Part shown: in pieces, positions 3,393 to 8,194 of the stretch
How positions within the stretch are numbered: the stretch's first letter is position 1
How the letters are laid out: every line of letters begins with the position of its first letter
Made by a program: the position numbers and the translations under genes
The notes under the pieces: model-generated
Databases searched by the model: none
What the model was told of the DNA's origin: nothing
What the model saw: the letters and a program-made list of their open reading frames with translations, nothing else
Assembly (NCBI GenBank): GCA_026985515.1
Contig: JALSQH010000039.1
Span: 1-8,194, forward strand
Origin: a bacterium
GTDB lineage: Bacteria; JALSQH01
Direction of reading: 5' to 3'
Length of the DNA: 8,194 nucleotides

Positions 3393-3761
3393 ATGGTGGA
3401 TGTGAAAGAACTTTTAAAGGAATTATCATCTCTTGGTGAAGAAAAACTCAACAAACTTCTTCAGGACGCTCTCTCTAATGAAAAAATTTCAAATGCCCTT
3501 ATGAAAGTTCTTCAAACAACACAGGTAGCAAAGGAAAAATTCAACAAAAATGTTCAGGTAGCCCTTGAGCTTGTTAATGTTGCCACCAAGGAAGATTACG
3601 AGGAATTGAAAGAGGAAATCAGAAAGCTGGCTCAAAAAGTTGAGGAACTTGAGAAGAAAATTGATAATCTTGCCAAAAGCACAAAGAAAACTGCCACCAA
3701 ATCAACATCCACAAAGAAAAGTACCAAATCCAGCAAGAGCACAAAATCAACGAAGAAATAA
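3393..3761 (+). CDS. PhaF/PhaI-like phasin with Lys-rich tail (granule-associated, putative)
   Basis: Small protein of 122 residues and the first gene of the plus-strand operon. Residues 1-60 are helical and amphipathic. Residues 61-93 (VNVATKEDYEELK, then heptad-like L/I/V spacing) resemble the C-terminal part of PhaF/PhaI granule-associated proteins, where a short 'V-(P/A)-(S/T)-(K/R)-x-D' turn precedes a leucine-zipper oligomerisation helix. Residues 95-122 are made only of Lys (11), Ser (8), Thr (8) and one Ala, like histone H1-type tails. In Pseudomonas PhaF the coiled coil oligomerises and a Lys/Ala-rich tail binds DNA to tether PHA granules to the nucleoid; that role is inferred here. 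ATG at 3393 is preferred, 5 nt after a strong AAGGAGG; an in-frame GTG at 3387 lies inside the Shine-Dalgarno. GTG at 3396 is also possible. The fit is by pattern, not by alignment; a generic coiled-coil DNA-binding protein is the alternative. Confidence 0.65.
   Translation: MVDVKELLKELSSLGEEKLNKLLQDALSNEKISNALMKVLQTTQVAKEKFNKNVQVALELVNVATKEDYEELKEEIRKLAQKVEELEKKIDNLAKSTKKTATKSTSTKKSTKSSKSTKSTKK
3675..3758 (+). repeat. Low-complexity Lys/Ser/Thr codon repeat (tail of the phasin-like gene)
   Basis: An A-rich stretch encoding 28 residues of imperfect STK/TKK/TKS units built from AAA/AAG, ACA/ACC and AGC/TCA codons. Synonymous codons are mixed, so protein composition rather than simple DNA slippage seems to maintain it. 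Such tracts can still vary in length between strains. Confidence 0.8.
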
Positions 3762-3763
3762 AA

Positions 3764-4732
3764 GTGACCGGAAAAATAGCCATAATTGGTGGCAACAACT
3801 TTACAGGTAATGCCCTGGGGAAGAGATTGTATGAAGAGGGGTATGACTTTATAGTTGTGGATATTGAGAGACCCCCTTCTCTTCCAAAGGAAGTTCCCTT
3901 TTATAAAGTTGATCTGACCCAAACAACGGCTGATGCAATTCTTGCCAATATTTTCAAAACAGAAGAGATAAAAACTGTAATACATATGGCCTTCCTCGAA
4001 AATCCCACCCATAATCTCAGTATGCAGCACGAACTGGAAGTTATTGGCACCCTTTATCTCACTCATGCCTGTGCAGAGGCTGGAATCGAAAAGATCATAA
4101 TGAAAAGCTCCACAATGGTTTACGGGGCTCACCCTGACAATCCCAACTTCCTCACAGAGGAGCATCCTGCACGTGGCACTCCATCCTATCCCTTTGTTCA
4201 GGATATGGTTGAAGCTGAAAAAATCATGATGAGGTTTAAAGAGAAACATCCTGAAGTTTCCGTGACCATATTGAGACTTGCAACTATCATTGGACCGGAA
4301 ATTGATTACTACATAACCAGAATTCTTTCACGCGCTGCTGTTCCAATTCTTATGGGATACGACCCTCTTTACCAGATTATCCATGAAGAAGATGCCGTTG
4401 AAGTATTTTTAGTTGCACTTCGATCAGATAAAGAGGGAATATTCAATGTTGCCGGGGAGGGTTTACTCCCCGTTACTTCAATTCTGAAGATACTTGGAAG
4501 GGTACCCATTCCCATATTTCATCCTGTCGCATATCCGCTGGTGGATTCTCTGTGGCTTGCTGGAATTTCACCGGTCCCGGGAGCGCATCTTGATTATATA
4601 AGGTACCTCTGGGTGGCTGATACTCAGAAGATTAAAGATGTGATGGGATTCTGGGGAGAGTATGATATTAAATCCACTCTTGAAAAATTCTTTGCAGGGT
4701 GGCGAGCAAGAAAAATGGGATTCACCTTATGA
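3764..4732 (+). CDS. Extended SDR, NAD-dependent epimerase/dehydratase-like protein, atypical active site
   Basis: A 322-residue protein with an N-terminal Rossmann fold. The beta1 glycine motif is IGGNNFTGNALG (8-19), in which the middle Gly of GxxGxxG is Asn. Acidic D33 at the end of beta2 (FIVVDIE) favours NAD(H). The strand VIHMAF (72-77) and KSSTMVYG (114-121) are normal extended-SDR blocks, with the Ser/Thr of the catalytic set present. The expected YxxxK is not: the region reads SYPFVQDMVEAEK (141-153), with Gln or Met where Lys should be, depending on alignment. Substrate unknown; related proteins may act on lipid-linked or polyketide-like substrates, but none is claimed here. The GTG start at 3764 follows the phasin-like stop by 2 nt with only a weak GAAGAAA ribosome-binding site. 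The stop overlaps the ParA start (ATGA), so the three proteins are probably co-translated. Confidence 0.82.
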   Translation: MTGKIAIIGGNNFTGNALGKRLYEEGYDFIVVDIERPPSLPKEVPFYKVDLTQTTADAILANIFKTEEIKTVIHMAFLENPTHNLSMQHELEVIGTLYLTHACAEAGIEKIIMKSSTMVYGAHPDNPNFLTEEHPARGTPSYPFVQDMVEAEKIMMRFKEKHPEVSVTILRLATIIGPEIDYYITRILSRAAVPILMGYDPLYQIIHEEDAVEVFLVALRSDKEGIFNVAGEGLLPVTSILKILGRVPIPIFHPVAYPLVDSLWLAGISPVPGAHLDYIRYLWVADTQKIKDVMGFWGEYDIKSTLEKFFAGWRARKMGFTL

Positions 4733-5493
4733 TAAAATTCGCACTTATTAATGAAAAAGGTGGAAGCGGAAAAACAACTCTTAATGTGAATCTTGCCTCA
4801 TATTTTGCACTCTTCAAAAACCAGAGGGTCCTTATTGTGGATATGGATCCCCAGGGACAATCAGGGAAATCCCTGGGAATTGATGTCAGAAACCTTGATG
4901 CCACCGTCTATGAGCTTCTCACAGGAGAAGCAAGGACAGGAGAAGTTATTCAGCAGACGAGAATAGAAAGTCTATTTATTATTCCTTCAAACAAATCCCT
5001 GGCCAATCTCCCATACAAAATAGTTGATGATCCGGATAGAGATGTTAAATTGAGAAAGGTTCTTTCAAGATTGAAAAATTTCGACATGGTCTTCATCGAT
5101 TCTCCACCTTCTCTTGGGGTTATCAGTTTCAATGTAATGACAGCTGCAAATAAGATTATTGTACCCGTCAGTCTTAACTATCTCTCCCTTGACGGAACAG
5201 CAGAAATAATGGATACAGTGGAGAGATTAAAAAAAGCCAACCATCTTAAAGATGTTGAGTTTTTTATGCTTATTCCCACAATGTATCGGAGAACAAGACT
5301 CGCATCTGAAATAATCTCAACTCTACAGAAACATTTTCCCCAGCTTGTATCCAGACACCATATTTCCCTCGATGTAAAAATTGACGAAGCTCAGAGTCAC
5401 GGGCTTACCATATGGGAATATGCTCCCAGAAGCCGGGGAGCAAATATGATAAAAGAAGTAGCAGAAGAAATATGGGAAAAGATAAAAAGTTAG
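4729..5493 (+). CDS. ParA/MinD-family ATPase, orphan (no adjacent ParB)
   Basis: A 254-residue ParA-type partitioning ATPase. Its deviant Walker A is EKGGSGKTT (9-17), with signature Lys10 and catalytic Lys15. The A' motif is VDMDPQGQSGKSLG (37-50) and Walker B is MVFIDSPPSLG (120-130). Arg and Lys residues in the C-terminal helices would suit nonspecific DNA binding. There is no N-terminal helix-turn-helix, so this is a small, chromosome-type or cargo-type ParA. Such ATPases form ATP dimers on the nucleoid and move cargo through an activator protein; a Lys-rich N- or C-terminal tail is typical of activators. No ParB or parS is present, and the genes around it are lipid/PHA-related, so cargo positioning (as by McdA or ParC) rather than DNA segregation is inferred. 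The ATG at 4729 overlaps the SDR stop by 4 nt and is preferred to an upstream GTG at 4699 inside the SDR gene. Confidence 0.9.
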   Translation: MIKFALINEKGGSGKTTLNVNLASYFALFKNQRVLIVDMDPQGQSGKSLGIDVRNLDATVYELLTGEARTGEVIQQTRIESLFIIPSNKSLANLPYKIVDDPDRDVKLRKVLSRLKNFDMVFIDSPPSLGVISFNVMTAANKIIVPVSLNYLSLDGTAEIMDTVERLKKANHLKDVEFFMLIPTMYRRTRLASEIISTLQKHFPQLVSRHHISLDVKIDEAQSHGLTIWEYAPRSRGANMIKEVAEEIWEKIKS

Positions 5494-6539
5494 AAGAGAA
5501 GCTGGAAGAAGAAATATCAAAACTTGAACAAAAAGCTGAGGAACTCCTGAAAAACAGGAAAAAAAATCTTCAGTTATTAGAAAAAAATCTTTCTGAACTT
5601 GAAAAGGTAATAACTGAAATTAAAAATTACCAGGAACTCCAAAAAGAGTTTCTTAGCAATCCCATTTATCGACAGGTTATTGAAGAGATAAAGTACTTTT
5701 TGAGGGAAATTTCCCCGGTTACCATCTTCAAAATCATGGCAGGACTTGGAAACAGCGGACAGGCTGAGGTGGATGAATTTGGAAAAGATGAAGAATTTGT
5801 TGAGAAGATCCAGCCCTTTATCGATTTCCTTTACGACAGATACTGGAGGGTGGAAGTCGAAGGGGTTGAAAACATCCCTTATGAAGGACCCGGGATTCTG
5901 GTTGCAAATCATGCCGGAGTGCTACCCTTTGATAGTTTCATGATAACTGAAGCAGTTAAAAGAAACCATCCCTTTGGAAGGATGCCGAGATTTTTGATTG
6001 AGGAATGGTTCCTCACAAGGCCTTTCATAGGAGTGGCTCTTCAGAGATATGGAATTGCAAGGGGAAGCCAGGATAATGCTCTCCGCCTTTTGAAAAAAGG
6101 TGAGCTAATAGGATTGTTTCCAGAAGGAATGAAGGGTATCTTCAAAATCTATTCCGACAGATACAAACTCCAGAGATTCGGAAGAGGTGGAGCCATCAGA
6201 GTGGCCATAAAAGGAAAGGCACCAATTATACCGGTGGCTGTCGTTGGTTCTGAAGAGATATATCCTGTAATTACTCACTGGGATTTTGTGGCAAGAATTC
6301 TTGGTCTACCCTTTTTCCCTGTTACACCCACTTTTCCATTTCTCGGACTCGCTGGACTGATTCCCCTTCCAAGCAAATGGATCATACGATTCGGTGAACC
6401 AATCCCCCTTAATGAATTGCCACCAGAAACTGTGGAAAATGAAATCATAATAAACACCCTTAATGAAGAGTTGAGAAGCACCATTCAGGAAATGCTGCTG
6501 GACATTTTAAAAAACAGAAGAACTATTTTTTTCGGGTAG
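5472..6539 (+). CDS. PlsC-like lysophospholipid/glycerolipid acyltransferase with N-terminal coiled coil
   Basis: A 355-residue protein. Residues 4-60 are a charged heptad-rich coiled coil, followed by a linker and a PlsC/LPLAT domain from about 125 to 345. Motif I reads ILVANHAGVLPFDSF (142-156): the catalytic His147 is followed by Asp154 after six residues (HX6D) rather than the usual HX4D. Motif III is LFPEGMKG (215-222), motif IV is APIIPVAVVGSEE (250-262), and GAIRVAIKGK (240-249) precedes it. A hydrophobic stretch at 274-300 may associate with membrane or a lipid surface. It would transfer acyl chains to a lipid hydroxyl, in phospholipid or neutral-lipid synthesis; the acceptor is unknown. 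ATG at 5472 is chosen, overlapping the ParA stop by 22 nt; an upstream in-frame ATG at 5412 would add 20 residues with no family-like content. The 3' end overlaps the convergent regulator gene by 17 bp. Confidence 0.85.
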   Translation: MGKDKKLEEKLEEEISKLEQKAEELLKNRKKNLQLLEKNLSELEKVITEIKNYQELQKEFLSNPIYRQVIEEIKYFLREISPVTIFKIMAGLGNSGQAEVDEFGKDEEFVEKIQPFIDFLYDRYWRVEVEGVENIPYEGPGILVANHAGVLPFDSFMITEAVKRNHPFGRMPRFLIEEWFLTRPFIGVALQRYGIARGSQDNALRLLKKGELIGLFPEGMKGIFKIYSDRYKLQRFGRGGAIRVAIKGKAPIIPVAVVGSEEIYPVITHWDFVARILGLPFFPVTPTFPFLGLAGLIPLPSKWIIRFGEPIPLNELPPETVENEIIINTLNEELRSTIQEMLLDILKNRRTIFFG

Positions 6540-7110
6540 TTTTCCTTTTACTGTTTTTTTCTCTTTCCTGCTGGAGCTTTTCCTCCAACTCTTTAATTTT
6601 TGCTTCCAGTTCCTCAACTTTTTTCTGAAGAGATTCAATTTTTTTAACCTGAGAGGGAGCGAGATATAGCCTTTCAAGGAATTCCCTTGTTCTCTGATCA
6701 ATTCTGTTCTGAAAATCCTCTATCATTTTCTGGGTAAGGACCATAAGATCCTTAATCTTAACAAGCCCCTCATCGGTCCCCTCTGCTATCCTGTCAGAAG
6801 TATCCTTTAAACTTTGAAGAGATGTCTGTGCAAGACGAGAGAAAAACTGAGATATGGCATCCTCGCCCCCAATTATGAGCTTCTTCAGAACACTTATGGG
6901 AAGCGTGGCTCTCCTCCTTTTACCCTCTTCGAAAAACACCTGTGAAAGTATCAGAGAGGTTATATCTTCCCCAGTTTTATTGTCAATAACTTTTACATCG
7001 TAACCTCTTTTTATCATGTTGGAAATATCTTCAAGAGTCACATATGAACTGTTCCATGTATCGTAAAACTTCCTGTTTGGGTACCTCTTGATCAATCTAA
7101 CTTCTTCCAT
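6523..7110 (-). CDS. phaR: PhaR-type polyhydroxyalkanoate synthesis regulator
   Basis: A 195-residue protein with the PHB/PHA accumulation regulator N-domain: VRLIKRYPNRKFYDT (4-18), SYVTLEDISNMIKRG (22-36) and VKVIDNKTGEDITSLILSQ (39-57) match the family signature closely. In proteobacteria this domain binds phasin-gene promoters and PHA polymer, derepressing phasin genes when polymer accumulates. Residues 150-185 form a strong coiled coil, and the end KNSKRKTTRKK (185-195) is very basic, which classical PhaR proteins do not usually need. Start ATG at 7110 follows a perfect AGGAGG 5 nt upstream. It is 9 nt downstream of the unknown 150-residue gene. Regulation of the nearby phasin-like operon is a natural inference, not shown. 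Its 3' end overlaps the acyltransferase gene tail-to-tail. Confidence 0.88.
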   Translation of the reverse strand: MEEVRLIKRYPNRKFYDTWNSSYVTLEDISNMIKRGYDVKVIDNKTGEDITSLILSQVFFEEGKRRRATLPISVLKKLIIGGEDAISQFFSRLAQTSLQSLKDTSDRIAEGTDEGLVKIKDLMVLTQKMIEDFQNRIDQRTREFLERLYLAPSQVKKIESLQKKVEELEAKIKELEEKLQQEREKNSKRKTTRKK

Positions 7111-7119
7111 CTAATCCTC

Positions 7120-7572
7120 CTACTCTATTTCTATTTTTTCCATTTCTGTAGGATTTTCCACTCCCTTAACTTTTTCCATCTCCTTCCTTATAAGTTCAAT
7201 TACTGATTCAATGGCGTTAAGATACTCTCTCTTTTCCTCCTCCTTTCCCCTCTCAATAATGATCTTCCTTTCAGCCTCAAGAACCCCGAGGATTGTTTCA
7301 TAAGCTTCCATCTTTGCCTTTACAAGCTCTGGCTCACTGTCAGGAGCCACTCTGGCAGCCCACAGATCAACACTTGCCTTTATCAAAAGAACAACCGTAT
7401 TAACAGCCTTTGCTCCCGGCAGATCCAGATTTTGCTCAACTATGAGGGAAACTATTTTAAGAAGGGAGCTGATTCCCTGAAGGGCGTGCCTGTGAGATTC
7501 TTTAAAATGAAATTTCGCTCTGTCAAACTCTTCATAAACCTCTGTTAAACTCAAAAGCTTCTTCTCATCCAT
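7120..7572 (-). CDS. Small all-helical protein of unknown function between arsA-like and phaR-like genes
   Basis: Not recognised. The 150 residues look entirely helical: an amphipathic N-terminal half with HFKESHRHALQGISSLLKIV (about 22-41), a mildly hydrophobic helix (about 40-75), and a charged Lys/Glu-rich C-terminal half (about 85-150) of coiled-coil character. There is no signal peptide, Cys cluster or enzymatic motif. Length and helical, amphipathic character are phasin-like (phasins are typically 110-200 residues), and its setting next to a PHA regulator makes a granule-surface role worth testing. ATG at 7572 has AGGAG 5 nt upstream, and the TAG of the preceding ATPase gene overlaps that Shine-Dalgarno, so expression is likely linked to it. 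Confidence 0.8.
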   Translation of the reverse strand: MDEKKLLSLTEVYEEFDRAKFHFKESHRHALQGISSLLKIVSLIVEQNLDLPGAKAVNTVVLLIKASVDLWAARVAPDSEPELVKAKMEAYETILGVLEAERKIIIERGKEEEKREYLNAIESVIELIRKEMEKVKGVENPTEMEKIEIE

Positions 7573-7580
7573 ATCAACTC

Positions 7581-8194
7581 CTATTTAAAAAAGAGCTTTA
7601 AATATCCATCCTCATATCTTGCTCTGACCAGATCCCTTATAGCAAGACTCCTGGGTAAAGTTATATTCCTCTGAAAATTCCTCAACTTAATGGCAACCTC
7701 TCCAGAGGGAAATGTCACTCTTATCCACATCAGGCAGGTGAATTTTCATAATAACAAACCCATCATCCTTGGAAACTTCAAAGGGCCTTTCTCTGAAAAA
7801 TAATTTTGATGGATCATCATTCCCAAAAATTGCCTCCCCAAGTCTTTTAAGAGCATCGTAATTAACAACCTCGTTCTGAAAGTAAGGTGCTATCAGAATT
7901 GGTAAAGGTGAAAAGGTTTCTTTTGCCTCCCTCAGGTACTCCTTCTGTCTTTCAACCCACTCCCTGAAATAACCGTTACCCGCCTCTTCTGGAAACACCT
8001 TGTTTATTATGAGAAGATCAACCTGCATTCCGAAAAGATGAAAGTAGCTTAAAGCCCTCTGCGATTCCTCCAGCACCATCTTTTCTGGATTAGCCACAAG
8101 TCTTATGGATGTCAAATCCTGATCGAGCAGAATTTCCCGGAGACTATCAACTTTTCGGTAAAGATCTTCAAGAGAACTGAAAATCTCCTCATCT
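7581..8194 (-). pseudogene. ArsA/GET3-like ATPase, C-terminal part, frameshifted in its HSP20-like domain; 5' end outside window
   Basis: The minus-strand frame is open from the window edge (8193) to TAA at 7687 and reads as the C-terminal region of an ArsA-family ATPase: SIRLVANPEKMVLEESQRAL, FGMQVDLLIINKVFPEE, LPILIAPYFQNEVV and KLFFRERPFEVSKDDG are characteristic. The Walker A and B regions lie outside the window. The terminal alpha-crystallin/HSP20-like domain starts (GFVIMKIHLPDVDKSDISLW) and then breaks. A +1 shift at about 7699-7706 continues as SGEVAIKLRNFQRNITLP and ends with YEDGYLKLFFK and TAG at 7581-7583. Restoring a second copy of TCTGGAGA would give ISLWRSGEV and put both halves in frame, so loss of one 8-bp tandem unit is a simple explanation. 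Sequencing error or phase variation are alternatives. Without the repair, the protein loses about 40 terminal residues; the ATPase core may still work. Family members handle tail-anchored proteins or metalloids, while bacterial HSP20-fused types are of unclear role. Confidence 0.8.

Follow-up and report, generated by a model that had tools for sequence, protein, structure and literature searches.

ParA-family ATPases have been shown to position chromosomes, divisomes, carboxysomes, flagella and chemoreceptor clusters, with one ATPase for each cargo and the gene of its adaptor located nearby (PMC10241942). The only known factors of polyhydroxybutyrate (PHB) granules are the nucleoid-binding granule proteins PhaM of C. 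necator, PhaF of P. putida and PhaH of C. crescentus, which link granules to the nucleoid; according to a 2025 review, the factor that spaces the granules is not known and the expenditure of ATP is an open question (PMC13052382). The window analyzed here, a stretch of 8,194 nucleotides that is the entire contig C39 of a genome bin of 2.36 Mb and 97.6% completeness, carries a plus-strand operon encoding, in this order, a phasin-like protein, a short-chain dehydrogenase/reductase (SDR), a ParA-family ATPase and an acyltransferase. The genes of PhaR, of a small helical protein and of a Get3/ArsA ATPase face it on the minus strand. The retention of a ParA-type ATPase beside phasin and PhaR genes in several distantly related groups suggests an undescribed ATP-driven spacing machine for plastic or fat granules. 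No description of a ParA system with phasins, the carbonosome or lipid droplets was found in the literature searched, a search that left preprints and most subscription journals outside.

The locus resembles McdA/McdB in the placement of an orphan ParA-family ATPase next to the gene of a small cargo-associated protein and in its putative non-DNA cargo, but the partner is phasin-like rather than McdB, and the cargo would be a storage inclusion. McdA structures match just the N-terminal part of the profile (E 4e-14), and the domain scan revealed no carboxysome genes among the window open reading frames (ORFs), although no search aimed at McdB was made. Some of the phasin-like proteins share with PhaF a basic C-terminal tail; PhaF, PhaM and PhaH, however, work without a known ParA, whereas the present loci always include the ATPase gene and show no conservation of the tail. 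By its putative role, the module phasin can be likened to MLDS, a coat protein linking the lipid droplets of Rhodococcus to DNA (PMC5504291). Chromosomal Soj/ParA has in common with the window ParA the fold family, the Walker motifs and the nearest solved structures (Soj, 1wcv/2bek). To our knowledge, no ParA is associated with the MLDS system.

The window ParA possesses both the deviant Walker A motif (KGGxxKTT, as KGGSGKTT) and the ParA family profile. Its P-loop reads NEKGGSGKTTL and its clade motif DEAQSHGLTIWEY; the C-terminal motif of the clade is DEAQSxGxTIWEY. A maximum-likelihood tree of 59 proteins contains a branch with 100/99 support that separates 32 phasin-linked ParAs from 27 others, of which 23 adjoin parB and one is the source genome's own Soj. 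Nineteen alignment positions set the phasin-linked proteins apart from the Soj-side set; the clade has E instead of Q before KGG, and DEAQS in place of the EAPS motif of Soj. There is no parB next to the window ParA within the window, and the sole ParB found in the source genome is encoded on contig C55, with a separate Soj on C56. The original prediction of a ParA lacking its ParB is thus borne out, and the possibility that the protein is the chromosomal Soj is ruled out by the tree together with the separate Soj and ParB. The glycine that precedes the catalytic lysine of the P-loop is replaced by cysteine in 58 of the 70 clade members (EKGG[T/S]CKTT), the window protein keeping the usual glycine. 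This cysteine (loci L084-L162) is unusual for a ParA and is perhaps redox-sensitive or kinetically altered.

Two distant genomes, G036 and G029, encode strong orthologs of the window ParA, with 44-46% identity over nearly the full length and above the ordinary Soj level. When 84,980 species genomes were scanned, 104 relatives emerged, 80 of which were kept; these are mostly Myxococcota (Myxococcus including M. xanthus, Corallococcus, Archangium, Hyalangium and Anaeromyxobacter), along with metagenome-assembled genomes labelled Deltaproteobacteria, Candidatus Abyssobacteria and Candidatus Poribacteria. Profile annotation covered the 69 loci with a readable ParA, ArsA being called with BagA/BagB/ArsA profiles, and recorded a phasin in 55, PhaR in 56, an ArsA-type ATPase in 56, an acyltransferase in 10 and an SDR in 9; at least one of phasin, PhaR and acyltransferase lies beside ParA in 67 of them. 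The order phasin-SDR-ParA-acyltransferase is found in G036 and also in locus L090, where a small helical protein and ArsA accompany it, and L087 is alike except for the phasin. G001, the one same-family relative among the genomes searched, has SDR-ParA-acyltransferase-PhaR, while the G029 locus holds PhaR, ParA, phasin and ArsA; in G041-G043, too, the phasin gene is directly upstream of ParA. In Myxococcota the genes stand as BagB-BagA (minus), phasin-ParA (plus) and PhaR (minus). The module order recurs in relatives from several phyla and is not due to chance; its conservation agrees with the original prediction.

The window phasin-like protein has four predicted helices, followed by a low-confidence Lys/Ser/Thr-rich tail that ends KSTKKTATKSTSTKKSTKSSKSTKSTKK. 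On its own it matches TIGR01837 (PHA granule-associated, PHA_granule_1; PHA, polyhydroxyalkanoate) at 3e-4 and 21 bits, below the cut-off of 94.7, while 23 of the 25 aligned family members match this model (best 5.8e-17, also below cut-off) and 11 match TIGR02132, the Bacillus-type PHA synthase subunit PhaR. The protein is labelled phasin-related rather than phasin because it scores below the curated cut-offs; the earlier phasin label gains strength from the family and is weak where only the window protein is considered. A core is common to the family members and the tail is not conserved: it is rich in Lys in the window protein and in those of G036, L093 and L110, and L042 also bears a basic tail, but Myxococcaceae have almost none and that of Anaeromyxobacter is acidic. 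The nucleoid-binding-type Lys tail proposed before is confined to a few lineages, which rules it out as a conserved nucleoid anchor. Several Myxococcaceae ParAs bear a short basic C-terminus where the phasin tail is lacking.

The PhaR of the window combines a PHB_acc_N domain, above cut-off, with a coiled coil and a basic tail, and matches TIGR01848 at 3.6e-26 (91.7 bits, below the cut-off of 109.45). No second PHB_acc_N gene was found in the source genome, and such a gene is single in 11 of the 12 genomes tested; in G049 another copy adjoins PhaC. The gene is located within the module in the source genome, G001, G029, G061, G112 and G145, and on a different contig from ParA in the G036 phylum. 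Loci L094, L109, L125 and L130 read BagB-BagA-ParA-PhaR with no phasin found between BagA and ParA, and PhaR might substitute for it there.

A class III PhaC-like synthase is encoded on contig C104 of the source genome (TIGR01836 4e-73 over residues 11-359; 246 bits, below the cut-off of 365), so that a candidate for the granule-forming enzyme missing from the window is present elsewhere in the genome. Class III PhaC-like synthases were likewise found in G001, G036 and G049. Of 146 Myxococcota, 53 carry a single match to a DNA pattern for the ParA motif, as do four of seven genomes of the G036 phylum. Among the 53 motif-bearing Myxococcota, 34 have PhaC_N, 38 a wax ester synthase/diacylglycerol acyltransferase (WS/DGAT) and 47 either of them, compared with 48 of the 93 Myxococcota without the motif that have PhaC_N or WS/DGAT; the association has p 4e-6 by genome and 0.07 by genus, with both shared descent and the exact-motif screen biasing the counts. 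The remaining 19 of the 53 lack a PhaC_N match, and TIGR01836 clearly rescued G049 alone among them. PHA as an obligatory or universal cargo is thereby ruled out, a point on which the original prediction is weakened. Fourteen Myxococcaceae with the ParA motif lack a PhaC_N match, and 13 of these have a WS/DGAT, a synthase of triacylglycerol (TAG). Since WS/DGAT is near-universal in Myxococcaceae, its presence is not an independent association, and it was dropped as a marker. PHA is therefore not required, and hydrophobic inclusions of either kind, PHA or neutral lipid, are possible cargoes.

Gene context, homology and phylogeny together point, at what we regard as an even chance, to a dedicated ParA-family module that positions hydrophobic storage inclusions, namely PHA granules in organisms with PhaC and neutral-lipid bodies in those with WS/DGAT. 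This reading is favoured because adaptor genes adjoin known ParAs, the spacing of PHB granules is open, and M. xanthus, a carrier of the module (L108), forms TAG lipid bodies during development (PMC4048283). ParA-ATP would bind the nucleoid as a dimer. The inclusion would be coated by the phasin, or by PhaR if there is no phasin gene, and this coat protein would serve as adaptor, stimulating the hydrolysis of ATP. ParA would thereby distribute the inclusions over the nucleoid and let both daughter cells receive a share at division, in the way that McdA/McdB distribute carboxysomes. The acyltransferase and SDR probably work on the surface lipids of the inclusion or in contact with them, and its hydrophobic proteins are probably clients of the Get3/ArsA ATPases. 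Somewhat more tentatively, the module may represent a ParA positioning system of a new, ATP-driven class, present in several phyla and not found in the usual PHA models, with PHA or TAG inclusions as cargo and a phasin or PhaR as adaptor. Such a class would add a new type of cargo to the ParA/MinD family and link storage metabolism, the nucleoid and cell division. The module is a concrete candidate for the PHB-granule spacing factor sought in the 2025 review (PMC13052382), and its presence in the genetically tractable M. xanthus, with well described TAG bodies, makes the question directly testable. The earlier interpretation is partly supported: the conserved gene order, the separate ParA clade, the PhaC-like enzyme and the phasin family speak for it, and it is weakened as regards the Lys tail and PHA as a universal cargo.

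Several observations weigh against the positioning of storage inclusions. The module itself contains no synthase, the synthase association is weak when counted by genus, and no clear PhaC or WS/DGAT was found in five ParA-bearing Myxococcota (G073, G081, G112, G145 and G165). The exact-motif screen behind these counts is an undercount, as 12 of the 17 motif-negative Myxococcaceae checked by profile have a ParA ortholog; absence of the motif thus cannot be taken as absence of the gene. The phasin gene is missing in some lineages (L094, L109, L125, L130), the basic phasin tail is absent in Myxococcaceae, and no PHB_acc domain (PF05233) is among the matches listed for PhaR.

The main rival is a role in membrane-lipid or hydrophobic-protein homeostasis, in which ParA would organize or regulate, at the membrane, a complex of the acyltransferase/SDR/Get3 type, with the phasin-like protein as an amphipathic chaperone. 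It is considered the less likely of the two, although gene context cannot tell it from a storage-inclusion role. The acyltransferase and SDR lie within the operon in several phyla, Get3/ArsA or BagA/BagB ATPases accompany most of the 69 loci, and the module occurs in genomes without detected PhaC, the five named above also being without WS/DGAT. The AlphaFold model of the acyltransferase matches TmPlsC (5kym, E 4e-8) and so folds like the phospholipid-making PlsC. Phasin and PhaR domains, on the other hand, are hallmarks of PHA inclusions, and in Myxococcaceae the module lacks acyltransferase and SDR, yet phasin, ParA and PhaR remain.

PhaR could also be a DNA-binding partner that forms with ParA a partition-like or nucleoid-linked regulatory pair on DNA sites, granules serving only as the signal. 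PhaR is indeed one of the neighbours found most constantly, and it remains by ParA where the phasin is missing, and PHB_acc_N is annotated as a DNA-binding domain. This explanation is nevertheless improbable, given the separate chromosomal Soj and ParB and the loci G036, L087, L090 and L107, where PhaR is not beside ParA but a phasin or acyltransferase remains. That the genes are unrelated members of a stable historical cluster without a joint function is very doubtful: most loci come from one phylum and are hence not independent, but the identical partners recur in distant phyla in differing order and strand.

The features of the window are collected in Table 1. The named ORFs were located at or very near the positions of the original prediction, which had not listed the ORF of the 150-aa protein. 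The ArsA-like ATPase is present as predicted, although it starts at 7687, beyond the quoted range of 3393-7110.

Table 1. Coding features of the window, with strand and supporting matches (aa, amino acids; pLDDT, predicted local distance difference test)
Feature	Position	Strand	Evidence or remark
Phasin-related protein, 122 aa	3393..3761	+	TIGR01837 family-level matches; model pLDDT 73
Extended SDR / epimerase-like protein	3764..4732	+	PF01370 5e-26
ParA-family ATPase, 254 aa, orphan	4729..5493	+	PF13614 5e-45
PlsC-type acyltransferase, helical N-terminus	5475..6539	+	PF01553 2e-16; start uncertain
PhaR-like protein	6523..7110	-	PF07879 1.8e-26
150-aa helical protein, no family assigned	7120..7572	-	position beside ArsA as in L087, L090
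Get3/ArsA-type ATPase, C-terminal part, HSP20-like end	7591..8194	-	PF02374 9e-31

The ORF of the acyltransferase extends back without a stop to an ATG at 5412, which lies within parA but in a different frame; its exact start is uncertain. Its N-terminal ∼78 residues are predicted to form long helices, and its motifs are NHAGVLPFD (H-x6-D) and FPEG; the family motif NHxGxLPFD is conserved, six residues, instead of four, separating His from Asp. The acyltransferase of G036 shows a weak match to DAGAT (diacylglycerol acyltransferase; 4e-4), which is a lead only. In the SDR of the window, the aligned YxxxK catalytic motif reads FVQDM, and the protein is possibly not catalytic. The motif is lost in several members of the SDR family; with the fold kept and YxxxK variable, a non-enzymatic NAD(P)-binding scaffold is conceivable.

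The ArsA gene crosses the end of the window contig, and its N-terminal half is probably that found at the start of contig C40, a few residues being missing at the junction as compared to L087. An apparent frameshift near 7690 places the HSP20-like C-terminus (7591-7690, minus strand) in another frame, due to either an assembly error or a real mutation. Likeness to Get3d and BagA-BagB is seen in the ArsA_HSP20 end of the L087 gene and in a second Myxococcus ArsA that matches BagB at 8e-97; the searched literature yielded no connection of these ATPases with ParA or phasins. The sequence of the 150-aa protein is not significantly similar to that of the small helical protein in L087 and L090.

Among the other loci, L107 has three acyltransferase-family copies around SDR-ParA. 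In L092 and L129, ParA-acyltransferase-SDR directly follows ORFs that, from their sequence, resemble electron-transfer flavoprotein subunits (L092 4227-5195; L129 5461-7223). Locus L102, titled Comamonas sp. KCTC 72670, is a Myxococcus-like contig whose ParA stands next to that of M. xanthus in the tree, and is likely mislabelled or contaminated.

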